A stretch of 64,000 nucleotides of DNA from the IMG/VR virus record IMGVR_UViG_3300047560_000921, positions 167,385 through 231,384 of that record; one strand, given 5' to 3'. A program made the position numbers and the translations under genes. The stretch is from a virus. Under the pieces are notes generated by a model, which did not search any database, was not told where the DNA came from, and saw only the letters and a list, made by a program, of their open reading frames with translations. Below, piece by piece: positions 36,782-58,832 of this stretch (the first letter of the stretch is position 1; every line of letters starts with the position of its first letter).

Positions 36782-37543
36782 CTACTCCCTTAACATATTA
36801 TTGGTATTTACTGCCTGCGTCAATAAATCCATATTAGCAGATACTTGTTGTGCTAGCTTTAATATGGCACTGACATCTTTAGGGAAACACATTCCACCGT
36901 AGCCGAACTCACCGTCGGGTCCTGGAACTTGTAAGTGACTAGCGCCTATCCTACTATCAGAAGCTAACATAAATGCAATTTGATCCCAGTCAACACCTAA
37001 TGCTTGTGCAAGTCCATGATACTGATTCATAGCTACAACTTTAAGAGCTAGGTAACTATTAACCACGTACTTAAACAAACTAGCCGTGGCAATGTCAGTT
37101 TTGAACACACTTGAATGCTGTACTGCTTTTTTGATAACTGCATGAGCTTTAGTGCAATACCATGCATCGCCGCCGAGCACTAATAGTTTGCCGTTAATAA
37201 AGTCTTCACTGGCATTGTTCTGTGTTAGAAACTCTGGGCTGTGTACTAGGTTAGGATACTGTTTTTGCAATCTAACATAAATGTCAGGCGTAGCTGTTGT
37301 CTTACTGATAATTACACCCGGATACTCTGCGAGCATTTCTAATGCTGATTCTAGCACAGTACTGTCACAGCTACCATCCGCCAGACTAGGACTAGGAACG
37401 CAGACAAATACTGCGTCACATCCTCTAACTTCGTTTTCATAGCCTAGCATAGGATCATAAATTTCTAAATCACAATCCGCTTGTTCAAAAGCATTAGCCA
37501 CTGCTGAACCTACTATCCCATATCCTACAATACCAATTTTCAT
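36782..37543 (-). CDS. UDP-glucose/GDP-mannose dehydrogenase-like protein, short form
   Basis: 253 aa from ATG 37543. MKIGIVGYGIVGSAVA is the NAD-binding Rossmann GxGxxG, LVHSPEFLTQ is the substrate-contacting stretch and GYGGMCFPKDV contains the catalytic Cys. Bacterial enzymes are about 390-430 aa; the C-terminal UDP-binding domain is absent here, so the protein may be non-canonical or need a partner. It overlaps the preceding LRW-family gene by 4 nt. Confidence 0.8.
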   Translation of the reverse strand: MKIGIVGYGIVGSAVANAFEQADCDLEIYDPMLGYENEVRGCDAVFVCVPSPSLADGSCDSTVLESALEMLAEYPGVIISKTTATPDIYVRLQKQYPNLVHSPEFLTQNNASEDFINGKLLVLGGDAWYCTKAHAVIKKAVQHSSVFKTDIATASLFKYVVNSYLALKVVAMNQYHGLAQALGVDWDQIAFMLASDSRIGASHLQVPGPDGEFGYGGMCFPKDVSAILKLAQQVSANMDLLTQAVNTNNMLRE

Positions 37544-38004
37544 TGTCCCCACCTTAAAGCAAATTTAAAAGCATCTTCTTCGTGCATGAATGCAAAGAAT
37601 ATATAGTCTCCAGTGCCGCCCAAATCACATATATGCCAGTTAGTGTCTTCCTCGCCATTTAAGCCTAAGCCTGTTTGTTGATACACACGCAACCAATCAT
37701 GGCGCCATTTATGTTCTAAGTTAGTTTCGCACCATTCTTGCATTTCGTGCCAGCCATATCTATATCCAGCTGGGCCATAATCGTAGAGTAGCTTATAGGC
37801 ATAGTGAGTGGGATTAGACGTAATCTGATGTACGTATTTGTATTTCCAGTAATAGTCTTTAACTATGCTTGCCCTGGGATTGTGATCCGGATCACGCTGT
37901 CTATAGTATTGCTTCCATGACTCACAGCCGTTGGCTTTTAGAAAACGTTGATCCTGCCACGTCTTGTACTTGTTTTTAATTTTTTCTATTAGACTTATTA
38001 TCAT
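37540..38004 (-). CDS. LRW-tail family protein, 154 aa
   Basis: 154 aa, the longest array member. The last residues HEEDAFKFALRWGQ carry the family signature, and MQEWCETNLEHKW near residue 88 is the WC helix. The N-terminus is a basic helix. It overlaps the next upstream gene by 29 nt and the dehydrogenase by 4 nt. Function unknown. Confidence 0.75.
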   Translation of the reverse strand: MIISLIEKIKNKYKTWQDQRFLKANGCESWKQYYRQRDPDHNPRASIVKDYYWKYKYVHQITSNPTHYAYKLLYDYGPAGYRYGWHEMQEWCETNLEHKWRHDWLRVYQQTGLGLNGEEDTNWHICDLGGTGDYIFFAFMHEEDAFKFALRWGQ

Positions 38005-38269
38005 AGGCTAGTAATTCAAATAAGGTTGCATATTGCGTTTCGGGTTCCATATGAAATCCCGTGCCCCACACTACCCATACTTTGCGTTTAAAGAGTTTCT
38101 CTCTCCAAACAATTTTACCTGTTACAGTTTTAACTGGTAGCCAAGCATAGACTTCGTGCCATGGGTAGCAGCCGGCTCCGTCTTCGACGATATGGTAGTC
38201 CATTCCTTCTTTCTTCAGTGATAGGAAATCAAGGTTCCAACCTATACTTCTGCTCCATACTAACTTCAT
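37976..38269 (-). CDS. Small array protein, 97 aa
   Basis: 97 aa, Trp-rich (WGTGFHMEPETQYATLFELLAYD). The final helix with ETQYATLFELL faintly resembles the LRW-family end, but the conserved terminal Trp is absent. Starts in a 4-nt overlap. Function unknown. Confidence 0.65.
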   Translation of the reverse strand: MKLVWSRSIGWNLDFLSLKKEGMDYHIVEDGAGCYPWHEVYAWLPVKTVTGKIVWREKLFKRKVWVVWGTGFHMEPETQYATLFELLAYDNKSNRKN

Positions 38270-38499
38270 TCCCCGCCCCAGGTCAGCTTAAACATAACTG
38301 CTGGTTCATATCTTTCAAACTGAATTTCTCTACAACCATCTTCCCTAGTTGATAGCCAGTTAATATAAAATCTATCAAAGTATTCCAGTCCCGGGTATTC
38401 TTGTAGCCATTGATATGCCTCTGAACTAGGACCTTTGATCCATACTGTGTATCTAAAACGCGGATTCTGTGCGCCGCCACCGCCATAATATAATTCCAT
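38266..38499 (-). CDS. LRW-tail family protein, 77 aa
   Basis: 77 aa ending ERYEPAVMFKLTWGGE. The segment AYQWLQEYPGLEYFDRFY is the W-(C/L) helix region. The N-terminus is a Gly-rich GGGGAQNPRFRY. Starts in a 1-nt overlap (TAATG) and ends in a 4-nt overlap. Confidence 0.75.
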   Translation of the reverse strand: MELYYGGGGAQNPRFRYTVWIKGPSSEAYQWLQEYPGLEYFDRFYINWLSTREDGCREIQFERYEPAVMFKLTWGGE

Positions 38500-38726
38500 T
38501 AGTATCCGTATTTTAGTTTATGCATCATAAGCTCATTGCTATCAACCCAATAGATTTCGCGTATTGGTCTGGCCGGGCCAATAATAGTACGAACACCCCG
38601 CATAGCAGGGCGCAACCATATTATCTTTTGTGATAGCCAGCACCGCCTGGGCAGTAGTGGCCTTGTTAATCGCCACTGTGCCATCTTAAAGTAAATTACA
38701 TTGTGTTCTTGCCAATATTCGTCCAT
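38499..38726 (-). CDS. LRW-tail family protein, 75 aa
   Basis: 75 aa ending WVDSNELMMHKLKYGY, the signature with Tyr in place of Trp. The central part is Arg/Trp/Pro-rich (LLPRRCWLSQKIIWLRPAMRG), unlike its neighbours. The start at ATG 38726 overlaps the upstream stop by 1 nt. Confidence 0.65.
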   Translation of the reverse strand: MDEYWQEHNVIYFKMAQWRLTRPLLPRRCWLSQKIIWLRPAMRGVRTIIGPARPIREIYWVDSNELMMHKLKYGY

Positions 38727-39079
38727 CACATGCCTTTTTTCAGTATTGCAACAAAATACAACTTATGAAGCATGTCCTTGAATTGTTCAGCAAGTTCTTC
38801 AGTGTCAAAGAATATTCCACCTAGCACAAAATTAGATAGTACACTGCGTGGGCTAGACTCTTCAGTTCTACTCCACCATTCAATGGAATACACTGTATAC
38901 GGATCTATGTCCCCGCTGTTCAACAGTACACCAAACGTTGCCCTGTCAAGTTTCATCTCATCAAATAGCAAGTACATAAGCCCTAGTCGTGTTTGGTCGT
39001 CCTGTACGTAGTTGTCTTCTGTCCACGTTACAGAACAACGGCCGTCCGCTAAGTGATTTATTTTAAGACCTAATTCCAT
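38726..39079 (-). CDS. Small array protein, 117 aa
   Basis: 117 aa from ATG 39079, which is 17 nt inside the end of the preceding gene. It begins MELGLKINHLADGRCSVTW. The end DTEELAEQFKDMLHKLYFVAIL has the acidic-then-hydrophobic helix but not the LRW ending, so family membership is doubtful. An in-frame extension to 39217 is unsupported. Confidence 0.65.
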   Translation of the reverse strand: MELGLKINHLADGRCSVTWTEDNYVQDDQTRLGLMYLLFDEMKLDRATFGVLLNSGDIDPYTVYSIEWWSRTEESSPRSVLSNFVLGGIFFDTEELAEQFKDMLHKLYFVAILKKGM

Positions 39080-39494
39080 GGTGCAACTTGTCCCACATAT
39101 CCCATTTGTTCTCTGCTTCTTTTCTAAGTTCGCGCTCACGGTCAGCAACCTTACGTGCTTCGTTGAGTCCCCACTTAGCAGTATGCAACTCTTGCTTAAC
39201 TTGTGCAATAAAGTCAATTAGCGTTGTAGCTTTAAGCTCATGCAGTTCGTCTTGCAGTTGGTTTCGTTCGTTGGCTAGATAGTCAATTTCTTCTTCTAAG
39301 TACCTAATGTATTGCCCTGGGCTACGATTACCTTCAAACGTGCAAGTGTCAGGGCACATGCCTGCATCTTCTAAGTCGTCTAAGATACAGCCTGGCATTT
39401 CGTCCATAATCCTGGCTAGTCGAAGCCGAATAGGATCAGTCTCAAACTTAAGAGTGTAGTTAATTAGTTCAGTGTCAGTTAAATGTCTGTTCAT
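39063..39494 (-). CDS. Coiled-coil protein within the array, 143 aa
   Basis: 143 aa, mostly helical. A long coiled coil spans about residues 62-135 (YLEEEIDYLANERNQLQDELHEL). It has two Cys in GMCPDTCTFEG. It does not carry the LRW ending. Starts with a 4-nt overlap. Function unknown. Confidence 0.75.
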   Translation of the reverse strand: MNRHLTDTELINYTLKFETDPIRLRLARIMDEMPGCILDDLEDAGMCPDTCTFEGNRSPGQYIRYLEEEIDYLANERNQLQDELHELKATTLIDFIAQVKQELHTAKWGLNEARKVADRERELRKEAENKWDMWDKLHHGIRS

Positions 39495-39772
39495 GCTTTA
39501 CCCCATCGTAGTACAAATATCATATAATCCTCTCGGTCCCTGATAAAAATTTGGTGCTCATATCTATGTTGCCAACGACTCCAAGCATTGGGAAACTTAT
39601 CCTCTGGACCGAAGTGCTCGGTACACCATTCGCGGACAGCATAGTAGTCTTCATCTCTAATGTCGGCAACATACCAGTTTCTACTGAACTTATACTTGGA
39701 TTCGTCTTCTTTTACTTTAAAGAACCCTTGCTTCATTTCGTTGATCATTCGAACAACATCATCTGTTTTCAT
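39491..39772 (-). CDS. LRW-tail family protein, 93 aa
   Basis: 93 aa from ATG 39772. YYAVREWCTEHFGPEDKF is the WC helix and the end is RDREDYMIFVLRWGKA. The start is fixed by an ATGA overlap with the upstream stop (GCATGA). Confidence 0.8.
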   Translation of the reverse strand: MKTDDVVRMINEMKQGFFKVKEDESKYKFSRNWYVADIRDEDYYAVREWCTEHFGPEDKFPNAWSRWQHRYEHQIFIRDREDYMIFVLRWGKA

Positions 39773-39969
39773 GCATATCTCAATACGAAAATTGTATATA
39801 GTTCGTGGTCGTGCCACTTTACGTTCATTAGGTAATGTTTGTTTTTGCTTTTTGCTATAGTGGCCTTGTACAATTTCAATTCTTTTTCTATCGTATTTTC
39901 GGGATCATGTGCCATGATAAAATTATCAAAGTAGCCCGCTTGTCCTCTGCGATATTGTCTTCTAATCAT
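39769..39969 (-). CDS. LRW-tail family protein, 66 aa
   Basis: 66 aa from ATG 39969, strongly basic (RRQYRRGQAGYF), ending WHDHELYTIFVLRYA with Tyr in place of the terminal Trp. Coupled on both sides by 4-nt overlaps. Confidence 0.75.
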   Translation of the reverse strand: MIRRQYRRGQAGYFDNFIMAHDPENTIEKELKLYKATIAKSKNKHYLMNVKWHDHELYTIFVLRYA

Positions 39970-40217
39970 GACCACTTTAGCATCCATAACATAAATGCTT
40001 CCTCGTCTACAATCTCTACGCTGTTAATTTTGTAGCCTGCTCGATTAAAGCGAACTTCTGTTTCAAAATCTAATTTAACCCCAGCAGTATATTCTAAGTA
40101 ATACTTAAAGCCGTTACGCTGACGTGCGGATCCTACATCATCTTGCCAATGTGGCTCATATGATTCGAAACAGTTGTTAAGCTGATTTTTAATTTCTTTA
40201 GGATTAATTGTTCTCAT
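39966..40217 (-). CDS. LRW-tail family protein, 83 aa
   Basis: 83 aa from ATG 40217, ending VDEEAFMLWMLKWS. TGGTCATGA encodes the last W-S-stop and the next start together. A beta strand GYKINSVEI leads into the terminal helix. Confidence 0.8.
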   Translation of the reverse strand: MRTINPKEIKNQLNNCFESYEPHWQDDVGSARQRNGFKYYLEYTAGVKLDFETEVRFNRAGYKINSVEIVDEEAFMLWMLKWS

Positions 40218-40465
40218 GACCATTTCAATACAAATATAGCGTAGTCGTGCTCGTCGTTGAAAAATACTCTAAACTTATATCCGCGTTCAGTGTTAACGAA
40301 TGTTGCACCAACTTGTTCAAGTTCTTCGTCAAGGATTGTTTCTAGGAAACCCGGTGGGGCAGTGGACGTACCAATGCGCCTGCGCCAAACATCTGCATAC
40401 CACTTTTCAAAGTAGTTTTTGGGTATGTTGCAGTTAATGTTTGCATAATATTCTTTTACAATCAT
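40214..40465 (-). CDS. LRW-tail family protein, 83 aa
   Basis: 83 aa from ATG 40465, ending NDEHDYAIFVLKWS. Preceded by NYFEKWYADVWRRRIG in the helix position. Coupled by a 4-nt overlap (TGGTCATGA) to the following gene. Confidence 0.8.
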   Translation of the reverse strand: MIVKEYYANINCNIPKNYFEKWYADVWRRRIGTSTAPPGFLETILDEELEQVGATFVNTERGYKFRVFFNDEHDYAIFVLKWS

Positions 40466-40674
40466 GACCACCTCAATACAAACAATACCATATCCTTTTT
40501 ATCTGTAAACAACACTTCGCCGTATATGATTTGATCCAACCAACGCTCTCCGGGTTCTCCGAATGCCTCGCGACACCACGCTTTCATTTCACGAACTTGT
40601 TCGATTCTTGGCGTCGGAAATGCAGCCACAGCATGACCTTCGTTCCAATATTCATCATAGGTGTGAATAAACAT
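40462..40674 (-). CDS. LRW-tail family protein, 70 aa
   Basis: 70 aa from ATG 40674, with REMKAWCREAFGEPGERW in the WC position and TDKKDMVLFVLRWS at the end. Starts in a 1-nt overlap (TAATG) with the upstream LRWT-encoding gene. Confidence 0.8.
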   Translation of the reverse strand: MFIHTYDEYWNEGHAVAAFPTPRIEQVREMKAWCREAFGEPGERWLDQIIYGEVLFTDKKDMVLFVLRWS

Positions 40675-40988
40675 TACGTCCACCTCAATGCAAACAACAT
40701 AGCATCTTCTTTTCGTTTGAATACAAACTGATTGCGATAACTATTCCAATTGCGGCTTTTAAAGTTACTGTAGCACCAACGCTCGGTATCCCAACGATCC
40801 TCACGGCCGACATTGTATTGATAAGGCCAATACTTTTTGTTAAATTGTTTATCAAAGAACTGGTTAAAGATGCCAGGGTACATTGAGTTTACATCTGAGT
40901 CCATTGGTTGTACTCCCACAATGTGGTTCGCCATAACCGTTGGCATTACGTTCCTAATCATAGGAATTATAACCTTGGGATCAATCAT
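40674..40988 (-). CDS. LRW-tail family protein, 104 aa
   Basis: 104 aa from ATG 40988. TERWCYSNFKSRNWN is the WC helix and KRKEDAMLFALRWT the end. The N-terminal third is Met/Ile/Val-rich (VIIPMIRNVMPTVMANHIV), a feature not shared by its neighbours. Confidence 0.8.
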   Translation of the reverse strand: MIDPKVIIPMIRNVMPTVMANHIVGVQPMDSDVNSMYPGIFNQFFDKQFNKKYWPYQYNVGREDRWDTERWCYSNFKSRNWNSYRNQFVFKRKEDAMLFALRWT

Positions 40989-41212
40989 GACCATTTCAAT
41001 GCACAAATAAGCGCATGCCTTTCGTCAGCTAACCATGCAACACATTGACTTCCGGAACTGTGAAACCTCAATTCGTACATATCTTCTTGCCACTCTGTAA
41101 TTTCATCCAACCAAGCACGAAGCTGATTAATTTCCTTCAGTCGGCTTTCTACGTCCCAAATGTCATTGGTTTGTAATCGTATCTTAACCGGATGATTACA
41201 GTTGTCTGTCAT
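40985..41212 (-). CDS. LRW-tail family protein, 75 aa
   Basis: 75 aa ending ADERHALICALKWS. INQLRAWLDEITEWQ is the W-(C/L) helix. Begins in a 4-nt overlap with the upstream gene. Function unknown. Confidence 0.8.
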   Translation of the reverse strand: MTDNCNHPVKIRLQTNDIWDVESRLKEINQLRAWLDEITEWQEDMYELRFHSSGSQCVAWLADERHALICALKWS

Positions 41213-41442
41213 GCAAATCTCAGCTTAAACATTAGGGCATCTTCTGCTTGTTCAAATGCAAACTTTGTGGGCATAAACGAACTAACATAACGTCCAGTTT
41301 TATTTCTGTCTGCCCATATTTGCAAACCTAGATAGCTAGTATTTGCTCGCTGTGCATAGTTAGCTTCAGACAAGTCAACCAAATGCCAGCCTCTGCGTAT
41401 TGCTGACCTAATGTTTCTGGGTTTGGTTTTAATTGTTTTCAC
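41209..41442 (-). CDS. LRW-tail family protein, 77 aa
   Basis: 77 aa, basic N-terminus (MKTIKTKPRNIRSAIRRGW), ending EQAEDALMFKLRFA, with Phe for the terminal Trp. 4-nt overlaps at both ends. Confidence 0.8.
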   Translation of the reverse strand: MKTIKTKPRNIRSAIRRGWHLVDLSEANYAQRANTSYLGLQIWADRNKTGRYVSSFMPTKFAFEQAEDALMFKLRFA

Positions 41443-41693
41443 AGTAATCCCGTTAGCTTTGCCAAAAAGTATTTTTCTTTATCTTCGACGATGTAACCAT
41501 CAGTGAAGTTTCCGCTAGCGTCCATTATACATTTAATTCCATATTGTGTCAATATGTATTCAGTAATTGTAACTATAGTATACAATTCTGGATTCCGTTC
41601 AAACTCGCCTTTTACCCTGCGTAAAAAAGCCCAAAAGGCATTTCGCTTCTTTCGGGCTTCGGTACTATCAAACGCTGTAACTTGCATTTTCAT
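41439..41693 (-). CDS. Small array protein, possible degenerate LRW member, 84 aa
   Basis: 84 aa from ATG 41693 (1-nt overlap). The end VEDKEKYFLAKLTGLL keeps the acidic turn and the L-x-x-L-T position but has lost the Trp. The middle has a TDGYIVEDKEKYF strand-turn like the other members. Confidence 0.65.
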   Translation of the reverse strand: MKMQVTAFDSTEARKKRNAFWAFLRRVKGEFERNPELYTIVTITEYILTQYGIKCIMDASGNFTDGYIVEDKEKYFLAKLTGLL

Positions 41694-41950
41694 TATCCGC
41701 TCCACTTTAATACAAACATCATTAGGTCATCTTGTTCCCTAAACCAAAACTTAGCATTGTTAGCATACCAACGTTGATTGGGAGTCATTACACCGTCCTT
41801 GGCACTTGCTCCATACGTTTCAACACACCATTCTATCATGTCTCGCCAAGTGTTGTTTTGTAGCCCACCTGGAAGCCACCAATCAAATTCAGGGTGTACT
41901 GTGTAGTATCTAGCACCGTATACGCGGCCTTCGCCTAACTTTAACTCCAT
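41693..41950 (-). CDS. LRW-tail family protein, 85 aa
   Basis: 85 aa. RDMIEWCVETYGASAK is the WC helix, FWFREQDDLMMFVLKWSG the end. It begins 10 nt inside the end of the upstream family gene; the shared DNA encodes both the W-S ending and the next MEL start. Confidence 0.8.
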   Translation of the reverse strand: MELKLGEGRVYGARYYTVHPEFDWWLPGGLQNNTWRDMIEWCVETYGASAKDGVMTPNQRWYANNAKFWFREQDDLMMFVLKWSG

Positions 41951-42192
41951 TGCAGTGCAAACATAAATGCTTCTTCGTCACATTCAAACTGAATGAACTT
42001 TTCTTTCATGTAACCAGGACTGTGATAGTATGCATGTTTACAGTTCGCTTTAAGCCATTCGTCTACTAGGTAATCTTTATAACTGCGCTGGTGCCTGGCC
42101 ATTACGTCGTCTACAGTTTTAGCATAAACAACTTTATGTAAAATAGGAATTTGGATGTTGGGAAACATCGTCATTGGTTTATACGTTATCAT
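41941..42192 (-). CDS. LRW-tail family protein, 83 aa
   Basis: 83 aa ending FECDEEAFMFALQWS, with DEWLKANCKHAYYH in the helix position. It begins 14 nt inside the preceding gene. Confidence 0.8.
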   Translation of the reverse strand: MITYKPMTMFPNIQIPILHKVVYAKTVDDVMARHQRSYKDYLVDEWLKANCKHAYYHSPGYMKEKFIQFECDEEAFMFALQWS

Positions 42193-42475
42193 GTGCCCAA
42201 GTTAGTTCAAACATTAGTGCCTCTTCGGCACTTTCAAATGCCCATGTGTGTCCACGGCTTTTAACATTATGTGTACATCTAGTTTTAAGCCATAGTTTAA
42301 CACGCTCGGCATCTCCGTTATTAAACCATGGACTGCGTTTAACAATAGTCCAACCACATTCTTTGAGCATGTCACACATTATGCTCCAGTCGATTTCTTC
42401 CTGGATTTCTTTGGCTAAGTGTTCATGAACTTCCGTTTCGATTGGATGCTCGTTTCTGAATAAAGTGTCTTTCAT
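42179..42475 (-). CDS. LRW-tail family protein, 98 aa
   Basis: 98 aa from ATG 42475. KLWLKTRCTHNVKSRGHTW and ESAEEALMFELTWAHDNV show the family plan with four extra residues at the end. The N-terminal half is acidic and helical. ATGA overlap with the upstream gene. Confidence 0.8.
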   Translation of the reverse strand: MKDTLFRNEHPIETEVHEHLAKEIQEEIDWSIMCDMLKECGWTIVKRSPWFNNGDAERVKLWLKTRCTHNVKSRGHTWAFESAEEALMFELTWAHDNV

Positions 42476-42705
42476 TCGCCCCATGTTAGTTTCACCATTA
42501 GTAAAAGTTCTTCAGTAATGTCAAATAAGCCGCCGCCAATGTAGCCGCGGCTATCGATGTGTTCATACCATTCTTTGTCTTCGTTAGGTTGTTCACGCAT
42601 CCATGCACTTGCTGGTTTGCTAAGTTTAACTGTATACCACATGCCTTCGTCGCAAGGATATCTATCAACAATTTTGTATGGTGTCATATTTTTAAGCATC
42701 TCCAT
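42472..42705 (-). CDS. LRW-tail family protein, 77 aa (start uncertain)
   Basis: Ends FDITEELLLMVKLTWGE. The frame is open to 42843, but only the part after the stop of the serine-peptidase gene (42782) is likely coding. ATG 42705, 42699 and 42687 are all possible starts. A peptide SGRRTGKS just upstream in the frame looks like a P-loop but precedes any good start and is treated as chance. Confidence 0.55.
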   Translation of the reverse strand: MEMLKNMTPYKIVDRYPCDEGMWYTVKLSKPASAWMREQPNEDKEWYEHIDSRGYIGGGLFDITEELLLMVKLTWGE

Positions 42706-42781
42706 GTATTGGACATACTCGCTTACAATAGATTTACCTGTGCGTCTACCACTGTATATAAGATTCAATGCTACTTTTGTA

Positions 42782-43597
42782 TCAAAAATAGTTGAATTCG
42801 ACAATGGTTTCAATAACGGGTGTTGGTTCTGGTCTCGCTTCAATTGGTATATCCAGTAATCCTGTAGCTAACTTGCTACGTTCGTTTATGTTCTTTGTTC
42901 CCAGGACTGCTACTGCAAACAGTGTGCCTTTCTTTTCAACTAACATGATAACACAACGGCCCGCGGCGTTAGTTGTACCTGTTTTGCTGATAAGAATGTT
43001 ATCGTAGGTAAACAGTTGTGGATTAGTGTTTTTAAAGTTAATTGTTATCTGTCTCTTACCACGTGGCATTGTAATTAAGGCATTACGTTCTGCGGCAATG
43101 CCACGAATAACAGGCTCGTTTCTGATATCATACAAAAAGTCAATTAGGTCATTGACATTACTAACATTACCAGGCAACAATCCGCTAGCATCAACAATAG
43201 CTGTTTCTCTTAGTTTAAGAACGTTAGTGATATAATTGTTAGCATCAATGATGAATTGCTTGAATCCACCAGGATGTGCATTTGCTAAACTTTCAGCCGC
43301 TAAGTTATCGCTACTAATCAACATAGCACGAAGTAAATCACGGCGGCTTATCTTAGTACTACGTGGGAAATGTCCACGGCTAGAGCCCACGACTTTTACT
43401 TTTTCATCTAAGTCTGCGCCACTGCGTATAACAGTCATTGCAGTAAACAGTTTTGTAATGCTGGCAATACTGCGTACTTGGTCCACGTTTTCTTTTGCAA
43501 TAAACTCATGTGCATCGTAATCATAGAGCGCATAAGCGGCGGCAAACACACTTGACGAAAATGCCATTGATATGACTAAAATTAACTTACGTAGCAT
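42782..43597 (-). CDS. D-Ala-D-Ala carboxypeptidase/endopeptidase (serine peptidase S11)
   Basis: 271 aa. Signal peptide MLRKLILVISMAFSSSVFA, then SxxK as SIASITK (nucleophile about residue 46), SxN as ISSDN, and KTG as SKTGTT. FANAHP and DASGL are typical of PbpG/DacA enzymes. It should be exported and cut cross-links or trim peptides in the murein. A C-terminal domain is missing compared with DacA, so PbpG-like endopeptidase is the better call. Phage carriage is unusual; a cell-wall remodelling or lysis-timing role is possible. Confidence 0.88.
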   Translation of the reverse strand: MLRKLILVISMAFSSSVFAAAYALYDYDAHEFIAKENVDQVRSIASITKLFTAMTVIRSGADLDEKVKVVGSSRGHFPRSTKISRRDLLRAMLISSDNLAAESLANAHPGGFKQFIIDANNYITNVLKLRETAIVDASGLLPGNVSNVNDLIDFLYDIRNEPVIRGIAAERNALITMPRGKRQITINFKNTNPQLFTYDNILISKTGTTNAAGRCVIMLVEKKGTLFAVAVLGTKNINERSKLATGLLDIPIEARPEPTPVIETIVEFNYF

Positions 43598-43818
43598 TAA
43601 ATTACCTTTCCCAATGCAACATAGATAAGTTCGTCAAGTTCTGCTTGATAGTCTCGACCAGTCCTGCGCTTTTCCCATATCTTAGTAACAAGCTCTGTGG
43701 GCGTTTTGCTGTTAACTTCGAAGCCTTTACCACGACGTACAAGTTCGTCAACTAACTCGTAGTCGTCAAAGTCATCTAAGTCAACGTCTACTTCGACTTC
43801 TGTGTATATTTTTGGCAT
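43597..43818 (-). CDS. Small acidic phage protein, 73 aa
   Basis: 73 aa from ATG 43818, with VEVDVDLDDFDDYELVDELVRRG, a stretch seen in many phage small proteins (recollection). It overlaps both neighbours by 1 nt. No known function. Confidence 0.8.
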   Translation of the reverse strand: MPKIYTEVEVDVDLDDFDDYELVDELVRRGKGFEVNSKTPTELVTKIWEKRRTGRDYQAELDELIYVALGKVI

Positions 43819-44114
43819 TAGTGATATCCGTCCTCTTCGGTGTAAATCTTCCAGCGACCTTCTTCTTCGTTCCAATGACGATTATCGTAGACAGTAAAGT
43901 GTACACAATAACCTAGCAAGCCTAGCTCAATGTTAAAACCAGCATGGTCCTGCCGAGTTGTTACTTCAAACTCAATGCGAAACAGTTCAGGTCCTTTAGT
44001 AATCTGAGCTTCCCAGAACTTATTCTTAAATGGTGTATCGCCCATCCACACTTTAATGTTCTTAAAGCGATCCCACCAGTATGGGTTACGGAGATTGATG
44101 TTAAAGTAAATCAT
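43818..44114 (-). CDS. Conserved phage protein, 98 aa
   Basis: 98 aa, beta-rich: MIYFNINLRNPYWWDRF and FEVTTRQDHAGFNIELGLLGYCVHF resemble a family frequently found in T4-like phages. No known function. Overlaps the upstream gene by 4 nt. Confidence 0.8.
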   Translation of the reverse strand: MIYFNINLRNPYWWDRFKNIKVWMGDTPFKNKFWEAQITKGPELFRIEFEVTTRQDHAGFNIELGLLGYCVHFTVYDNRHWNEEEGRWKIYTEEDGYH

Positions 44115-44677
44115 AAGTTATTCTTTTCAATGCAGTGTTTTACATATTCATAGCTAGGATTGCCCAAGAAGCGCATGGATAAGATCCACCGATCCTCTTC
44201 GTCATTGGCCACTGCCATGTGCGGTACATCCACTCTAACTAGGTGTGCAGAAGTTAGCTCTAGGCTTTCTTTTAGTACGGGTTCTCCATACCACTCGGGT
44301 TCAAACCACTTTAGTCCTTTTGCTAATTTAGGCACAATAGCATAGTCACCGCCGTAGTATTCGAACCTACTGTTAGTTGTGCCTTTGAGTGGAATGTTAA
44401 TAGCACAAAACAAAGGAAAGTCGTGCCCATCTACATGCAGATATTGTTTAGAAGCTCTACGACGAACATAACTGTCTGCGTACATAACGCCTGGGATACC
44501 ATAGCTGTTAAGTTCTGCGTTTACTACAGATAACAATTCTTCGGGAAACTCATGCGATGCCCGGTACTGAGTTTTAATTATAAGTTGAGTCGTGGCTTTC
44601 TTGGCCTCTAAATCTTTTAGTGCCCAGTCGCGGATTAACTGCTCGCACTGTAGTTTAATAGGCGTAGAAAATTCCAT
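44111..44677 (-). CDS. 2OG-Fe(II)-oxygenase-like protein C
   Basis: 188 aa. The candidate facial triad is HVD in QYLHVDGHDFP (about residue 77), His in VRVDVPHMAV (about residue 150) and Arg in RWILSMRF. Around it, INIPLKGTTNSRFEYY follows the same strand order as the oxygenase-like pair at 28.0-29.2 kb. Substrate unknown. Confidence 0.55.
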   Translation of the reverse strand: MEFSTPIKLQCEQLIRDWALKDLEAKKATTQLIIKTQYRASHEFPEELLSVVNAELNSYGIPGVMYADSYVRRRASKQYLHVDGHDFPLFCAINIPLKGTTNSRFEYYGGDYAIVPKLAKGLKWFEPEWYGEPVLKESLELTSAHLVRVDVPHMAVANDEEDRWILSMRFLGNPSYEYVKHCIEKNNL

Positions 44678-44949
44678 TACTCTTCGTCGGTGATTTGAGA
44701 CTTAAAGAACTCTAGCTGGTCGATGAGATTTTGCACGCCAGCCTTGTTCATAGTAATCTCGCCATAGTACATACTAAAGGCAAGACGATTGTTGTCAGTG
44801 ACACCAAACCTATAAAAGATCTTTGCAGGTTCTTCTTTGGGCGGAATAGTTTCTGGCACTGGCGGAATGGGTTGTGTTAGTTTGGGAAACTTAACTACAT
44901 TAGAGTCGTCCACTTTAGGTTTCCTTGTAAAAAAGTCAAATAGTTTCAT
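44677..44949 (-). CDS. Small phage protein, 90 aa
   Basis: 90 aa with a Pro-rich middle (PIPPVPETIPPKEEP) and a C-terminal helix MNKAGVQNLIDQLEFFKSQI. The helix matches the end of the 77-aa gene at 61378 (MNKRDLHNIKKEILEFIKFY), so the two are related. 1-nt and 4-nt overlaps. Confidence 0.75.
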   Translation of the reverse strand: MKLFDFFTRKPKVDDSNVVKFPKLTQPIPPVPETIPPKEEPAKIFYRFGVTDNNRLAFSMYYGEITMNKAGVQNLIDQLEFFKSQITDEE

Positions 44950-45197
44950 TTCTGCACCTCATCGACTACAGTTACACTATTGCGTTTTTTTGTTTTACCA
45001 CTCTGAACGTCATAGTTAGTAGTAGTAGAACTATTAGGGCAACGTATAATTCTTATATCATCAATTTTGATATAAGAGCAATCAGATAGTTCTGGAATCC
45101 CAGTCAGTGACCTAATAGAATATTCTCGTTGGTCAATGGGACGATTGTCACAGCCAGCAAGTGCAACTAAAATTGAAAGTAGTAAGATTTTCTTCAT
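44946..45197 (-). CDS. Small lipoprotein, 83 aa
   Basis: 83 aa. MKKILLLSILVALAGC gives a lipobox after a short signal, so a lipid-anchored outer- or inner-membrane protein is expected. Two further Cys (SDCSYIK, IIRCPN) may form a disulphide. It has its own start-proximal promoter. Phage lipoproteins of this size often act in superinfection exclusion, but nothing specific is seen. Confidence 0.75.
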   Translation of the reverse strand: MKKILLLSILVALAGCDNRPIDQREYSIRSLTGIPELSDCSYIKIDDIRIIRCPNSSTTTNYDVQSGKTKKRNSVTVVDEVQK

Positions 45198-45202
45198 AGT
45201 AT

Positions 45203-45231
45203 ATTATAGCATTATTGGGATTTTTTGTCAG
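45203..45231 (-). promoter_or_regulatory. Sigma70-type promoter, start-proximal
   Basis: CTGACA (45231-45226), 17-nt spacer with ATCCCAATAATG, TATAAT (45208-45203), 5 nt before the lipoprotein ATG. The spacer partly resembles the repeated early-promoter spacer at 51-60 kb. Confidence 0.65.
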
Positions 45232-45697
45232 CAGAGTCTTTAACCAATTCAGACACAAACAAGAAATGTTCGTAGGCTTCTTTGACACTGGGATGACTCA
45301 TTAAGAAATTGGCTTCTTCAATGATCGCTTTTACTGCGGCTTCTGCGGCTTCCCTGGCACTGGGCCATTCCAATTGTTTGGCATCGTCTCCAAATTCTTT
45401 TACCAAATTCTCCCATGCGGCTTTTTGGCTAGGTGTTAGCGGACGTTCGGTGCCTCTTGTGTTACGACGAATCTCAGTAGCATCCATAATCTTTTTGCTA
45501 ATTACATCTTCTGCTACACGCCCTGCGGCAATTAGTGCGGCATAGTTAGGGTCGACGCAGTAGCGACGACTTGAACCGCCCGGATAGCAAATAACCAAAT
45601 GCGATCCTTTTGGAAATGCATCCATTAGTTCTTGGTCGTATTCATAGACAGGCTCATACTTGCGGCCAACCTTTTTATAAAAAATTGTCTTCTTCAT
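45212..45697 (-). CDS. Conserved phage protein, 161 aa
   Basis: 161 aa from ATG 45697 (1-nt overlap). The N-terminus KKVGRKYEPVYEYDQELMDAFP and VICYPGGSSRRYCVDP may form a small beta domain; the C-terminal half is helical. Not recognised beyond similarity to hypothetical phage proteins. Confidence 0.75.
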   Translation of the reverse strand: MKKTIFYKKVGRKYEPVYEYDQELMDAFPKGSHLVICYPGGSSRRYCVDPNYAALIAAGRVAEDVISKKIMDATEIRRNTRGTERPLTPSQKAAWENLVKEFGDDAKQLEWPSAREAAEAAVKAIIEEANFLMSHPSVKEAYEHFLFVSELVKDSADKKSQ

Positions 45698-45918
45698 TAA
45701 ATTCCCCATGTCATTCTAAATAACAATGCTGTTTCATGATCCGGAAAGTCTAGTATCATGCCTACTAATGCTACGTTGTTTGCCTCGCACCACTCTTCTA
45801 ATCCTTCTGCTACCATATCAAAGTAAACATCTGGATGGGTCATTATCCCGTGTATAGTTCCGTCTAGTTCTGTTATTATAACACGCTCTTTGTCCTTAGA
45901 CGGAAACACTTCAGCCAT
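45697..45918 (-). CDS. LRW-tail family protein, 73 aa
   Basis: 73 aa. EEWCEANNVALVG is the WC helix and DFPDHETALLFRMTWGI the end. It lies apart from the main array, with 1- and 8-nt overlaps to its neighbours. Confidence 0.8.
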   Translation of the reverse strand: MAEVFPSKDKERVIITELDGTIHGIMTHPDVYFDMVAEGLEEWCEANNVALVGMILDFPDHETALLFRMTWGI

Positions 45919-46216
45919 TTGATGGAACGGCCTCTGGTTTGGATAGCTCTAGGACCATGCGTTGATAGTTGTCGTATATTTTTGAATACACTGCCACTTC
46001 GTAGTTATTTGATTTGTAGTCGTATTGAAATGCAATTTCGATCTTTAACTTGTTTTCCAGTGCCCATTCAATAACATTAGGTGCTTCCTTGTAAAGAATC
46101 TCTCGTACATAAGAGTACCCGGGATTAGTGGACCATGGAGGTTTAGGATTGCCACCATCAGGCAGTGGCACATCTTCGGGTGCGATGTATGTTCTATAAA
46201 GGATCAGTAATGCCAT
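45911..46216 (-). CDS. Small array protein, 101 aa
   Basis: 101 aa with a Pro-rich N-terminus (PEDVPLPDGGNPKPPWSTNP) and KIYDNYQRMVLELSK near the end, a weak echo of the LRW signature with a 9-residue tail. Function unknown. Confidence 0.65.
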   Translation of the reverse strand: MALLILYRTYIAPEDVPLPDGGNPKPPWSTNPGYSYVREILYKEAPNVIEWALENKLKIEIAFQYDYKSNNYEVAVYSKIYDNYQRMVLELSKPEAVPSNG

Positions 46217-46479
46217 TAACTAGTCCAAGTAATTTTAAAAATCATGCTTTCGCTGTCGTCACTGATGTATACTGTATACATAGGATCACCGCTGTTAAAT
46301 CTATGTGTAACATCGGCGGTAGGGCAGTTAACTTCCATCCATGCTTCAAACTCGCGGTCATTGGATGGATAGCACCAGCAGTACCAACCACGTGGCGGCG
46401 GATCCATCGGATATGGAGTACCAGGATTCGGACATGTTTTGCCGTCCTCAAATCGCCAGTGATGCACGTTTACGTTCAT
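46216..46479 (-). CDS. LRW-tail family protein, 87 aa
   Basis: 87 aa. EFEAWMEVNCPTAD is in the helix position and YISDDSESMIFKITWTS is the family end. The N-terminal half is Trp/Cys/Pro-rich (PPPRGWYCWCYPSN). Starts 4 nt inside the upstream gene's end. Confidence 0.75.
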   Translation of the reverse strand: MNVNVHHWRFEDGKTCPNPGTPYPMDPPPRGWYCWCYPSNDREFEAWMEVNCPTADVTHRFNSGDPMYTVYISDDSESMIFKITWTS

Positions 46480-51346: not shown

Positions 51347-51366
51347 ATGTGCTCCTTATTAATGCT

Positions 51367-51395
51367 ATTATACATTTAATTGGATTTATTGTCAA
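51367..51395 (-). promoter_or_regulatory. Consensus early promoter, dyad-spacer family
   Basis: TTGACA (51395-51390), 17-nt spacer ATAAATCCAATTAAATG, TATAAT (51372-51367). Same spacer family as the seven promoters at 56.9-59.7 kb; the dyad arms here have mismatches. It is positioned right after the terminator at 51402-51428. Confidence 0.92.
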
Positions 51396-51713: not shown

Positions 51714-52283
51714 TTAAGCTAGGCCTTCGGCAACAAGAACCTTTTCAGCGTCGCCGCCTACTTCGATTTCTGTGCGAACGTTAAGCTCAAGGATCTCGTC
51801 CTGTAGCTTTTGCTTGGCCTTTTTAAGTTGCAACAATGCGCCTTTGAAGCCTGTAATGTCCTCTTGTTTGAGAACACTGGTAGCTACATTAGATTCGTAG
51901 CCGTAGATGGTTCGTGCATCTTCTTTGCGGTTCTTGATTTTATCAAGTTTGCCTTTGATGACATCCATGCTTTCCTGGGCCTTCTTGCCACCCAAGGTGT
52001 TAAATTGTCCGATACGCTTATCGAACATCGCCACTTCGCCCAACTTCAAGTTGATGCCGGATGTAGCGTTGGCGGTTGCGACCGCATTTCGTACAGTGTA
52101 CAACACTGTGTTCAAGTTTTGAACACGAGCCATGTTGTTCAACAGTGTTTGGCGAGTTTCAGCCAAGACCGTTTCTGGATCTTGGAACTCGTTAAGGGAA
52201 ACTTCAGTTTCCAGTTCGATGCCTTTGATTGCATCGTTAATTGCTGTTTGAAGCTGGCTAGCTTTACGTAGACTGATTTTCAT
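51714..52283 (-). CDS. Coiled-coil protein, 189 aa
   Basis: 189 aa from ATG 52283 (RBS AAAGGAC). Mostly helical with KGKLDKIKNRKEDARTIY and QLKKAKQKLQDEILEL segments. It is coupled to AcpS by a 4-nt overlap. Its first residues MKISLRKASQLQ are typical of a phage protein family of unknown function. No membrane segment. Confidence 0.8.
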   Translation of the reverse strand: MKISLRKASQLQTAINDAIKGIELETEVSLNEFQDPETVLAETRQTLLNNMARVQNLNTVLYTVRNAVATANATSGINLKLGEVAMFDKRIGQFNTLGGKKAQESMDVIKGKLDKIKNRKEDARTIYGYESNVATSVLKQEDITGFKGALLQLKKAKQKLQDEILELNVRTEIEVGGDAEKVLVAEGLA

Positions 52284-52645
52284 TGTGTGTCCTTTTCTAA
52301 AATGACTACTGCACATGCCGTAGTCTTAGTATCTGTAATTGAAATTAAACCTTTGCGGTTATGCGTATTTTTAAGTACAGGGGCTCCTAGTGCGTCATGC
52401 TCGACCCACACCTTTTGCCAATCTCTTAAACTTTGGATGCCCGTTCCCAGTGCTTTGAAATACGCTTCTTTAACTGCAATGCGTTTTGTTAAGTATGTTA
52501 TTATAGCAGATCCTTGCAATTTGTCTAGCTCTAATTTCTCCAAATCGCTACAAACAAACTCAACTAGTCTCTTTGGGTTTCGGGAGAACATGCGTTCAAC
52601 ACGTTCTCTTTCCACCATATCAACTGCAAAGCCAGCAATTTGCAT
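52280..52645 (-). CDS. acpS: Holo-[acyl-carrier-protein] synthase (AcpS-like)
   Basis: 121 aa, the family length. FAVDMVERERVERMF carries the conserved Asp (D9) and RIAVKEAYFKALGTGI the conserved Glu and Lys of the CoA/Mg site; DWQKVWVEHDALGAPVL is the family ACP/substrate strand. The enzyme transfers 4'-phosphopantetheine from CoA to a Ser of carrier proteins. No carrier protein is visible in the window, so host ACP or a phage gene elsewhere would be the target. 1-nt overlap with the BI-1 gene. Confidence 0.88.
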   Translation of the reverse strand: MQIAGFAVDMVERERVERMFSRNPKRLVEFVCSDLEKLELDKLQGSAIITYLTKRIAVKEAYFKALGTGIQSLRDWQKVWVEHDALGAPVLKNTHNRKGLISITDTKTTACAVVILEKDTQ

Positions 52646-53346
52646 TAGTCGTCTTTGCTAGGTGCTACACCAAAGAGCTGTAGCAAGTTAACAAACAAGT
52701 TGATAAAGTCCAAGTACAAAGTCAACGCACCGCAAACTTCAATGGCCACACTGGTATCATTACTGACCATCTCACGGATTTGCTGTGTATCGTAAGCAGT
52801 GAATGCCAAGAAGATTACAATAGCAATCGCTGAAATTACCATTTGTAGCACACTTGAGCCAATAAAGATATTGATAACACTGGCAATGATAATTGCAATC
52901 AGTGCAACCAGCAAGTAAGCGCCCAAGTTATCTAGACTGCGTTTGGTAAAGTATCCGTAGAAACTCATTACGCCAAACAACACTGCGGCACCCATGAAGG
53001 CTGTAAAAATACTGCCCATGCTGTAAACTACAAAGATAGCACTTAGGCTTAGACCCATTAAAGCCGCAAAACCATGCAGTAGACCAACTGCAACAGGAGC
53101 AGGAGGATTAGCGTTAAGTGCCGGCATCATAATGAAAACTGCAACCAAAGGTGCAAACAATACGACCCACTTCATCACACCAGTGAAGAAGAATGCCATT
53201 GCGGCTGGACTAGTGCCAACTACAAAACTAACCAACATGCTTGTTACTACGGCAAGCATCATGTGCATGTACACACGACCCATTGCAGAGTTAACTTCAC
53301 CTGCTGTACGATAGGGCTGGTTGCCCGAATAAACTGTTCCAAACAT
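52645..53346 (-). CDS. Bax-inhibitor-1 family (YccA/YbhL-like) membrane protein
   Basis: 233 aa from ATG 53346 with RBS AAGGAG. Seven hydrophobic segments and the family end ..ALTLYLDFINLFVNLLQLFG plus FTAYDTQQI (conserved Asp pair) identify BI-1. E. coli YccA of this family is an FtsH substrate and modulator. Placed between ClpP and AcpS, it suggests control of host membrane proteolysis. Confidence 0.92.
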   Translation of the reverse strand: MFGTVYSGNQPYRTAGEVNSAMGRVYMHMMLAVVTSMLVSFVVGTSPAAMAFFFTGVMKWVVLFAPLVAVFIMMPALNANPPAPVAVGLLHGFAALMGLSLSAIFVVYSMGSIFTAFMGAAVLFGVMSFYGYFTKRSLDNLGAYLLVALIAIIIASVINIFIGSSVLQMVISAIAIVIFLAFTAYDTQQIREMVSNDTSVAIEVCGALTLYLDFINLFVNLLQLFGVAPSKDD

Positions 53347-53359
53347 AAAGTTCTCCTTG

Positions 53360-53509
53360 TTACCAATTACCTTTGTCATTGTCGGATAGTCCGTCAATGG
53401 CTTTTACTACACACACTACCACAACTGCGGCGATAATAATAAACAACAATCCTTCTACTAGAATCGATAGTCCCTTATCGCTTGTCAACAACTTGATCAG
53501 CCAATCCAT
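53360..53509 (-). CDS. Small membrane protein, 49 aa, overlapping the clpP end
   Basis: A 49-aa frame in the +1 register across the clpP stop: [20 protein letters not shown] then a strongly hydrophobic [16 protein letters not shown] and an acidic end. AGGAGG lies 9 nt before the ATG. It fills the 128-bp gap before BI-1, which itself starts 13 nt after this stop. One transmembrane helix; a possible partner of BI-1. Confidence 0.7.
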
Positions 53510-56919: not shown

Positions 56920-56952
56920 TTTTGAACTCCTGTTTTGTTACGCTATGATGTT

Positions 56953-56981
56953 ATTATACAATAAATTGGATTTATTGTCAA
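56953..56981 (-). promoter_or_regulatory. Consensus early promoter with perfect spacer dyad
   Basis: TTGACA (56981-56976), spacer ATAAATCCAATTTATTG, TATAAT (56958-56953). CAATAAAT-CCA-ATTTATTG is a perfect 8-bp-arm dyad running from the -35 into the -10. The -35 overlaps the stop of the next upstream gene. Confidence 0.95.
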
Positions 56982-57292
56982 GCACCAGTCCAACGAACTT
57001 TCACAGTGTCCAGGGCAAACAGGTTACCACGTGCAAAGTTAGTAGCAGGGGTAGACCACGTTGCGGCTTTAAGGATATCGCCCTTTTTAAAGCCAAATTT
57101 GGGGTTATCTTCGATAACGATGAAGCTGTGTACGCTGGAGCCAGCAATCACTTTGATGTATTTGCGGCCAGCTTCGGCACGCACACTGGCTTGGAACTCT
57201 TTAGTCATTTCCTCGCGGACCTTGGCTTCGCCGCCCCACTGGGCATAGTCGTTTTTGATAGCGTCCAAGTATTGTTCCATTTGCTCTTGCAT
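56978..57292 (-). CDS. Conserved phage protein, 104 aa
   Basis: 104 aa from ATG 57292 (RBS AAAGGAAG). KYIKVIAGSSVHSFIVIED and KKGDILKAATWSTPATNFARGNLF are widely conserved in phages of this type. An in-frame extension to 57331 would start inside the promoter -10 and is rejected. Role unknown. Confidence 0.85.
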   Translation of the reverse strand: MQEQMEQYLDAIKNDYAQWGGEAKVREEMTKEFQASVRAEAGRKYIKVIAGSSVHSFIVIEDNPKFGFKKGDILKAATWSTPATNFARGNLFALDTVKVRWTGA

Positions 57293-57322
57293 TTTGGCTT
57301 CCTTTTGCGTTACAGTACAAGT

Positions 57323-57351
57323 ATTATACATTTAATTGGATTTAATGTCAA
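57323..57351 (-). promoter_or_regulatory. Consensus early promoter, dyad-spacer family
   Basis: TTGACA (57351-57346), spacer TTAAATCCAATTAAATG, TATAAT (57328-57323). The dyad has one mismatched pair (CATTAAAT against ATTAAATG). Confidence 0.93.
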
Positions 57352-57725
57352 CCATTGGATTTGTGGTATGCGCTAGCATACAGTTCGGGCGCAATTTCCT
57401 TGAAACTGTCCAGAAATTCTTTTCCCACATCCAAGCTCACATAGTCTTCACCTTGCATACCTTGCTCACTGTAGCTGACATCGGCACCAGCAAGACCTGC
57501 TTCGTTGAGTGCTTGACGAAGCTCTTTGATGAATTGGGGGTCGGTGTAAATCAGTCCGTCTTTGTTAACGTCCCAAGTAGACAAATCAAAGCCCACAGTG
57601 AGTTCGCCGAAGTCTTTGTCTTCGCTGATATAGTTAACATTGATGCCCACACACTTGACAGCTTTGGCCTTGTTGCTCCAATAACCAACACCGCTGGTAT
57701 TAAGGGTAGTACCAAATTTAATCAT
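57348..57725 (-). CDS. Uncharacterised early-type protein, 125 aa
   Basis: 125 aa from ATG 57725 (RBS GGAGCAAAAG). It begins MIKFGTTLNTSGVGYWSN and has VGFDLSTWDVNKDGLIYTDPQF. A longer frame to 57908 passes through the promoter and is not used. The gene end overlaps the neighbouring promoter. Confidence 0.8.
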   Translation of the reverse strand: MIKFGTTLNTSGVGYWSNKAKAVKCVGINVNYISEDKDFGELTVGFDLSTWDVNKDGLIYTDPQFIKELRQALNEAGLAGADVSYSEQGMQGEDYVSLDVGKEFLDSFKEIAPELYASAYHKSNG

Positions 57726-57755
57726 CTTTTGCTCCGTTTGCGTTACAATACAAGT

Positions 57756-57784
57756 ATTATACATTAAATTGGATTTAATGTCAA
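57756..57784 (-). promoter_or_regulatory. Consensus early promoter with perfect alternative dyad
   Basis: TTGACA (57784-57779), spacer TTAAATCCAATTTAATG, TATAAT (57761-57756). CATTAAAT-CCA-ATTTAATG is a perfect dyad that differs from that at 56953 by a compensating change in both arms. Confidence 0.95.
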
Positions 57785-58059
57785 GCCAAATCAACTTGCA
57801 CAGGAACAACAAACTTTTCGTTGCCGTCTGGGGTATAGTTGTAGTTGAAGCCAAATCCAACAGGAATATCGCGGTGCATGGATGTGGCCATTGAGCGATT
57901 GTATGCAAGATTCATTAGGGCAGTTTGAACGGCAACACGATGACGATGTGTTACAATTTCCGAAGTACCTGCGACTGTAGTGTTAAAACCTACGCCGTCG
58001 ACGATAACACGGATTTTTTGGCTGTTTTTGAACCCGTCGATAAAAGTTGGTGTACGCAT
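57781..58059 (-). CDS. Uncharacterised early-type protein, 92 aa
   Basis: 92 aa beginning MRTPTFIDGFKNSQKIRVI, with a His/Arg-rich stretch THRHRVAVQTALMN. RBS AAGGAG. Its stop overlaps the next promoter. No family recognised. Confidence 0.8.
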   Translation of the reverse strand: MRTPTFIDGFKNSQKIRVIVDGVGFNTTVAGTSEIVTHRHRVAVQTALMNLAYNRSMATSMHRDIPVGFGFNYNYTPDGNEKFVVPVQVDLA

Positions 58060-58088
58060 ACAAACTCCTTTTTGCTTACTATGCCATT

Positions 58089-58117
58089 ATTATACAATAA
58101 ATTGGATTTAATGTCAA
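58089..58117 (-). promoter_or_regulatory. Consensus early promoter, dyad-spacer family
   Basis: TTGACA (58117-58112), spacer TTAAATCCAATTTATTG, TATAAT (58094-58089). One dyad mismatch. The leader TAATGGCATAGTAAGC is nearly identical to those at 58785 and 59148. Confidence 0.95.
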
Positions 58118-58314
58118 CCAACTGTAACCACCCAAAGCCCACTAAACCATGTCATGGGGTTGTACCAACGAAAGGGTTTAAGCCCAAATTTGACAGCCAT
58201 GTCGTATGCATCCGCAAGGGTACGATCCTTGAGCATTAGCTCAGTTTCATTGCGGTAGCCCCAACCAATGTAAATCTTCGGGTAAACCTTAGTATTATCT
58301 TTAAAGACGTTCAT
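58114..58314 (-). CDS. Small early-type protein, 66 aa
   Basis: 66 aa: MNVFKDNTKVYPKIYIGWGY, TLADAYDMAVKFGLKPFRW, NPMTWFSGLWVVTVG. RBS GAGGAG. Function unknown. Confidence 0.8.
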   Translation of the reverse strand: MNVFKDNTKVYPKIYIGWGYRNETELMLKDRTLADAYDMAVKFGLKPFRWYNPMTWFSGLWVVTVG

Positions 58315-58317
58315 TGT

Positions 58318-58554
58318 TTACTCCTCTTCATAGTTGTAGCTCTTGATACCGTAGTGCCCACGGCAGGATTCATCGTAGGGCTGGATGATGGTGTATGCTT
58401 TAGTATTATCTTTTTGATACGCTTCGTAGGCAAAGCCGTGTGCATGGCCCAGGTTATCGTGCTCAAACAGGCACTCGTCAGTATCGTAGTCAAACATGCC
58501 GCCGCGGCACTCATAAACACGATACAGGCTCTTGGGGAATTGGGTATTGGCCAT
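58318..58554 (-). CDS. Small acidic protein, 78 aa
   Basis: 78 aa with several Cys and Tyr (YRVYECRGGMFDYDTDECLF) and KDNTKAYTIIQPYD, a short stretch shared with the preceding 66-aa product. Starts in a 1-nt overlap (TAATG) with the upstream gene. Not recognised. Confidence 0.8.
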   Translation of the reverse strand: MANTQFPKSLYRVYECRGGMFDYDTDECLFEHDNLGHAHGFAYEAYQKDNTKAYTIIQPYDESCRGHYGIKSYNYEEE

Positions 58555-58754
58555 TACAGTTCCTTACGCAGGTTAGTCACGTTGCCAAAGTCTGCAATGT
58601 ATTGCTTCAGACCCTTGCTGGCGTTTTCGATTGTTTCTTGGCTGTGGAACATGCAACGAACAAAACCATAAGCATAGTGAACGGGATTGTACTTACGTTC
58701 CCAAAATGTTTCACGGAGTGCAATGTGCTCTTTGATTGCTTCAACTTTGGTCAT
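58554..58754 (-). CDS. Small early-type protein, 66 aa
   Basis: 66 aa from ATG 58754 (RBS AAGGAAC). MTKVEAIKEHIALRETFWER then HYAYGFVRCMFHSQETIENA. The frame extension to 58793 begins in the -10 of its promoter and is rejected. Confidence 0.8.
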   Translation of the reverse strand: MTKVEAIKEHIALRETFWERKYNPVHYAYGFVRCMFHSQETIENASKGLKQYIADFGNVTNLRKEL

Positions 58755-58784
58755 TGTCTGTTCCTTTTTGCTTACTATGTCATT

Positions 58785-58813: not shown

Positions 58814-58832
58814 TCCAAAAAAGGTAGTACTT

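Follow-up and report, generated by a model that had tools for sequence, protein, structure and literature searches.

The final 64 kb of the 231,384-base IMG/VR viral record IMGVR_UViG_3300047560_000921 (G000; positions 167,385 to 231,384, hereafter the window, 64,000 nucleotides (nt) in all) contain at 37.5-46.5 kb, on the minus strand, a dense run of small genes that overlap mostly by 4 or 10 bases and encode, for the most part, members of a new, widespread and fast-evolving protein family of jumbo phages. In some of these proteins, the core domain of the family is joined by conserved segments from the major capsid protein (MCP) of the phage itself. These capsid segments, overlooked by an earlier note made on this DNA from its letters, are the strongest clue to the function of the array. 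The phage is T4-like, encoding a gp23-type capsid protein and a T4-type large terminase; its array is surrounded by auxiliary genes and lies at 205-214 kb of the record, whereas the MCP gene is at 44 kb.

In the window, one such hybrid is encoded at 40674..41006 (minus strand; 110 amino acids (aa) as called, the true start being probably an internal ATG at 40988 that overlaps the upstream stop), and consists of an MCP piece, segment A, and a core domain. Residues 9-35 of the hybrid (40902..40982, minus strand; DPKVIIPMIRNVMPTVMANHIVGVQPM) share 60% identity with this phage's MCP (G000:C1:44271-45440), and the hybrid matches the profile of its own MCP at E 1e-10 and Pfam Gp23 at E 6.7e-6. Segment A (MCP ~58-95) comprises 22 residues that align to T4 gp23 95-117 with the conserved pattern R..xP..IA..I.GVQPM, and we take it to be the Lit-triggering Gol peptide of T4 gp23. 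It is found on array proteins of 13 phages (G000, G001-G004, G007, G008, G009 with two copies, G011, G014, G015, G017 and G018, with G008 and G017 being close relatives) at profile E-values of 1e-16 to 1e-5, the best reversed decoy being at 0.22, and on at least three types of array carrier. Where both main carriers are clearly visible, in seven phages (the window, L002, L003, L004, L019, L029 and L089), one of the two has segment A and the other lacks it; in L020 it is on both, one copy being degenerate, and in L045 one of two adjacent paralogues has it and the other does not. An unrelated 226-aa open reading frame (ORF) of the cultured Sinorhizobium phage Phosso also bears segment A (E 1e-12). 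At this locus (182175-182855; L127 7676-8356) the GenBank call starts at 182439 and omits the capsid-like segment, through which the open frame runs upstream.

In the hybrids, the 22 residues that end in GVQPM are retained and divergence sets in immediately after them, in a stretch where MCPs remain conserved. Among five type-1 hybrids, mean identity is 55% in segment A and 59% in the core, with 28% in the linker between. In a single close pair (L019/L088), segment A has accumulated six synonymous and no nonsynonymous changes, compared to eight and eight in the remainder, which suggests purifying selection on the peptide. The second Arg of its RR pair, invariant in 11/11 MCPs, is replaced by Lys, Asn or Thr in 11 of the 15 hybrids, the register in this count being less sure for the poorly aligned second copy of L020 and for Phosso.

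Other parts of the MCP recur in the same manner. Segment C/D (MCP ~313-375), followed by a core domain, makes up Phosso gene 170 (113923-114303; XYS97328.1), where its capsid origin is clear (E 4e-8; Pfam Gp23, 9e-6), and it is present more weakly on L014 and L012. Segment B, an 'LAxEIxxEID' helix, is the N-terminus of the protein encoded at 42179..42484 (minus strand; core E 5e-5) and of its orthologues in eight other loci. It comes probably from the MCP, which was the best match among ~490 proteins for a profile of the nine N-termini (E 5e-4, with the next at 0.086 and reversed at 0.45) and gave E 1.5e-4 in an hhalign comparison; the single copy in the window (42359..42445, minus strand; PIETEVHEHLAKEIQEEIDWSIMCDMLKE) gave E 0.81, which is not significant, and a viral contig scan with the segment B protein as query returned nothing. 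A short 'FYSPYIPL' stretch in L006 is, alone, not significant. Graft positions vary: segments A and B are N-terminal, and C is C-terminal in L014 and L012 and N-terminal in Phosso. The Pfam PF07068 (Gp23) cut-off was passed by the window hybrid at 40674 (26.2 bits), L045 (53.8), L054 (40.8), the 226-aa Phosso ORF (37.1) and Phosso gene 170 (25.8). No hybrid has a full HK97-type capsid domain, since only ~30-65 of the ~380 Gp23 positions are matched and the rest is another domain.

The MCP segments with the highest conservation, as judged by invariant columns, include A, B and C/D, and we examined other possible donors. On comparing 488 larger proteins of two phages with 573 array-region ORFs, repeated partial matches came from capsid proteins only and, with 93 donor profiles built from proteins common to two phages, fragment matches beyond the decoy floor came from the MCP only. 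Matches to other donors were full-length relatives or near decoy level (best reversed, 0.0086). Between G000 and G015, a phage of 374 kb, 15 proteins including the MCP share at least 60% identity, and the other 14 give no fragment matches, so conservation alone does not account for the MCP being the only donor found by this test, which would miss ancient grafts from poorly conserved donors. Terminase was considered as a second donor given some Walker-A-like N-termini, and did not reach significance (E 0.62, compared to 0.09 for decoys). These N-termini (GRRTGKS or GRQTGKS) occur at 42700-42771 in the window, and at L029 10592-11029 and L089 3388-3795 (there preceded by a DYQ motif).

We favour, tentatively and with less than even confidence, the reading that the capsid-bearing hybrids act on host factors that detect newly made capsid protein, serving as decoys or antagonists, binding and protection both being inferred. 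The array domains in general would most likely supply the phage with accessory binders, directed against host proteins or acting upon them. The overlapping genes form an operon-like run, in which a small domain of predicted beta-alpha-beta-beta-alpha order is duplicated and diverges quickly, and some of the encoded proteins have gained conserved segments of the phage's own MCP. Such a hybrid should bind whatever the capsid protein binds, and might hence engage host capsid-recognising factors, such as EF-Tu (at a site of the Gol type) or capsid sensors resembling chaperones; if made ahead of the capsid protein, it could compete for these factors, and the real capsid protein would then escape sensing or not trigger suicide. 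The mimic would have to bind without activating, for which the altered second Arg might serve. In T4, Gol is a 29-residue region in the first quarter of gp23, and the most conserved part of this protein, that binds EF-Tu and lets the Lit protease cut it (PMC3014915). CmdTAC is triggered by new gp23 binding to the SecB-like CmdC, and gp23 escape mutants could not be isolated (PMC11618068), while CapRel is triggered by the MCP of another phage (PMC9712102). More broadly, jumbo phages may keep a dedicated mimic of their own MCP, passed around within an expanding family of small proteins, so as to blind or jam capsid-detecting immune sensors, in a form of self-mimicry as immune evasion, a proposal that we hold with slightly less confidence still.

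Several points weigh against the hybrids being decoys. Since the capsid protein is itself the trigger in Lit and CmdTAC, a mimic without changes should itself raise the alarm; residues would have to be altered for antagonism, and the change of the second Arg in most hybrids is compatible with this but is no proof. Moreover, most array members are without a recognisable capsid segment, and the conservation of the MCP may make its segments easier to detect than others.

The main rival, which we consider doubtful, is that the capsid segments serve as tags for docking to the phage's own MCP, whereby the hybrids would act in capsid folding or assembly (as an assembly brake, a chaperone adaptor or a minor head component) by pairing with the MCP region that complements the segment. 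Whole self-assembling proteins are often bound by their own fragments and, consistent with docking, the grafts correspond to highly conserved MCP segments, and the hybrid has kept the peptide but not the sequence that follows it in the MCP. Nevertheless, the array genes are distant from the head genes and within an auxiliary run, there is no sign of capsid roles for the other array members, and the segments derive from separate parts of the MCP rather than from one interface. The hybrids could also be by-products of gene birth, with array genes arising by illegitimate recombination and the capsid pieces kept without any capsid-related role. The varied graft positions, the clear shuffling in the array and the presence of segment A on an unrelated Phosso ORF fit this view, which we nonetheless find unlikely given that the MCP is the sole detectable donor among the 93 tested, that the same 22 residues recur, and that synonymous changes prevail in the peptide of the one close pair and its presence on the two main carriers is complementary. 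Slightly less likely again are weapons against co-infecting related phages, with capsid fragments as dominant-negative poisons of the rival's shell. Conservation of the segments across T4-like phages means that rivals could be affected, and the array turns over quickly; however, with nearly the same segment in its own MCP, the phage would be expected to harm itself, and the grafts resemble the MCPs of other phages no more closely than they do the phage's own.

Decoy or not, the proteins that carry these segments belong to one paralogous family, as the earlier note had proposed from a shared C-terminal signature, and do so even when that signature is removed: with the last 20 residues cut, a profile from half of the loci recovers 71/153 members of the other half at E<0.01, compared to 0/153 shuffled sequences and 4/770 background ORFs, which excludes a family by chance. 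At E<1e-3 the family totals 253 members. Searches that started from members uncovered related arrays of overlapping genes in about 24 phage contigs from metagenomes; database phages searched by DNA or single proteins initially gave no match. With a profile built from the members, as the earlier note had suggested, relatives were found in the cultured phages Phosso (34 family matches in several clusters), which had first surfaced as an E=4 match before confirmation by the profile search, and Agrobacterium phage Atu_ph07 (four matches). G015 has ~33 members within 10 kb, and well-covered arrays have 7 to 33 each, most without an obvious orthologue in the next phage. This high turnover agrees with the fast divergence described in the note, whereas an arsenal against host variation, as it also supposed, is not shown. 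No relatives were found with the family profile in T4, GAP32, 121Q, XaC1, BcepSauron or Vibrio phage 2.275.O, or in a scan of bacterial genome contigs for arrays. None of 59 core members matched a family in PADLOC or NCBIfam, and Pfam and PHROGs yielded no fitting family for array members, only scattered single weak matches, so that, as had been stated, no known family name applies.

AlphaFold2 predicts a single shared domain of beta-alpha-beta-beta-alpha order, in line with the common fold anticipated earlier. The core structure model is based on the 73-aa member at 40462..40683 (minus strand; predicted local distance difference test score, pLDDT, 83 overall), which has an extra N-terminal strand (E5-8 E18-21 H27-41 E48-51 E56-59 H62-72). 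In the model, the 'WC' motif would be in the first helix, 'FxF' in the strand preceding the last helix, and 'EDAMLFALRW' in the last helix. For the hybrid at 40674-41006, the core is modelled at pLDDT 93-97 and the N-terminus is uncertain (~50). The predicted order resembles part of the ferredoxin-like or RRM-like fold, but fold and sequence searches of the PDB gave no usable neighbour (best E 0.35). In a viral structure library, the nearest models were mostly uncharacterised proteins of uncultured phages, several at Foldseek probability 1.0. Profile comparison gave nothing for the core domain as an MCP derivative. One array protein, L014 9904-10317, has two domains, with the FALTW family ending followed by a second complete copy, apparently from a fusion of neighbouring genes.

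We also considered if the shared ending could be an artefact of overlapping start and stop signals instead of protein homology, which the earlier note had named, together with unrelated folds, as the outcome that would speak against a family. Overlaps are indeed common (-10 or -4 nt as a rule), and the Arg codon preceding the terminal W is AGG in 123/174 cases (71%) compared to ~10% of Arg codons in the rest of these genes; TTG-AGG-TGG-TCA-TGA thereby contains a Shine-Dalgarno-like AGGTGG just 5' of the next ATG. Yet the W is present in 27/31 members without an overlapping next gene and in 191/222 with one, and is thus equally frequent in both, so the amino acids of the ending are under protein constraint, and the AGG bias indicates that overlap accounts for the codon choice and not for the protein motif. 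The apparent association of W with the 10-nt overlap is mechanical, because TGG after A, G or T makes a start codon. With the bodies homologous in the absence of the ending, and one predicted fold that places the ending in its last helix, overlap is ruled out as the sole cause, and we regard an artefact as extremely improbable. The ending therefore shows dual coding, with the protein terminus and the ribosome-binding site of the next gene in the same codons.

A profile of 221 members from other phages, with G000 left out of training, matches 14 ORFs in the window at E<0.01, all on the minus strand, and the tandem array is hence real. Besides the two hybrids and the modelled protein at 40462..40683 (E 8e-13), these are 37540..38004 (154 aa with a long N-terminal extension; E 4e-7; orthologues in L014, L019, L088 and L089), 38266..38499 (77 aa; E 7e-8; orthologue L004 7126-7368), 39491..39817 (108 aa; E 4e-12), 39966..40223 (85 aa; E 0.007; orthologue L004 9700-9960), 40214..40471 (85 aa; E 1e-4; orthologue L029 11268-11525), 40985..41212 (75 aa; E 2e-5), 41209..41442 (77 aa, LRFA end; E 3e-6), 41693..41950 (85 aa; E 8e-14), 41941..42192 (83 aa; E 3e-6), and two outlying members, 45697..45918 (73 aa; E 0.001) and 46216..46479 (87 aa; E 0.001; orthologue L004 11717-11989). 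A probable member at 39769..39987 (minus strand; 72 aa, LRYA end) is weak with G000 left out (E 0.15), yet has a clear counterpart in L019 (6311-6532). The gene at 42472..42843 (minus strand), with a Walker-A-like N-terminus, belongs to a divergent subfamily (type 2), as judged by its own profile, which was trained on it (E 1e-27), and by hhalign to the main family (E 1.5e-5); it is without segment A, which is present on type-2 proteins in seven other phages.

Some genes between 37.5 and 46.5 kb do not belong to the family, those at 38726, 39063, 42782 and 44111 being unrelated. The one at 42782-43597, adjoining the array, encodes a D-alanyl-D-alanine carboxypeptidase (Peptidase_S11, E 2e-30). 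The possible relatives proposed at 31.96-32.54 kb were not upheld (E 0.01 and 3.9, signature end absent), and that at 61.16 kb is marginal (E 0.062 when left out of the profile, 6e-5 when included).

Elsewhere in the window, a promoter-like element of 30 nt (TTGACA-17-TATAATA, the spacer being conserved too; TTGACAATAAATCCAATTTATTGTATAATA) occurs in eight nearly identical copies on the minus strand at 51366-51395 and 56952-59696, with none expected by chance. Seven of them are within 2.8 kb, upstream of small genes, and the eight are probably a series of strong early promoters. A Bax inhibitor-1 family membrane protein (52645-53397; E 9e-52) adjoins a 4'-phosphopantetheinyl transferase-like protein (52280-52645; E 7e-13). 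Two SGGIDSTT proteins (5775-6872 and 18970-19890), possible paralogues, look PP-loop ATPase-like by eye, and the ORF at the contig end (62960-63991) resembles by eye the C-terminal part of an autotransporter; none of the three has a Pfam match.

Altogether, the family and its recurrent capsid grafts are solid and new, and the role in immune evasion is a testable proposal; we found no account in the open-licence literature of this family, of its arrays, of capsid-segment hybrids or of a phage countermeasure by capsid mimicry. The capsid protein, a common alarm for bacterial immunity, is also essential and not easily changed by phages. If the proposal is true, small capsid mimics would offer the phage a different way out, and the grafts would mark the places that sensors read. 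Phosso, being cultured and having the family as well as two capsid grafts, makes this testable at the bench.

Among known systems, T4 internal head proteins are likewise small and variable with one common element; that element is a capsid targeting sequence at the N-terminus, which the head protease cuts, whereas the shared part in the array is a folded domain with a C-terminal signature. Anti-CRISPR and anti-defence islands are likewise located in a non-structural region and made up of small, diverse genes that share one direction and turn over fast, but usually mix unrelated families, while one family makes up almost the whole array; searches made on the array identified no Aca-type regulator. 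In Bacillus phage G, a lineage-specific zinc-ribbon expansion of about 35 copies (PMC7824862) is, like the array, a single small family greatly expanded in one jumbo phage, but of another domain, and the portion of that account available to us does not mention capsid segments. CmdTAC and CapRel show the capsid protein to be a common alarm signal, and hence a good target for countermeasures (PMC11618068, PMC9712102); they are host sensors, and nothing in the array encodes such a sensor. As to Gol/Lit of T4, segment A aligns to gp23 95-117, in the first-quarter region that contains Gol (PMC3014915), but the peptide here is grafted on a small protein distinct from the MCP, encoded within an auxiliary array, and departs from Gol at the second Arg of RR.

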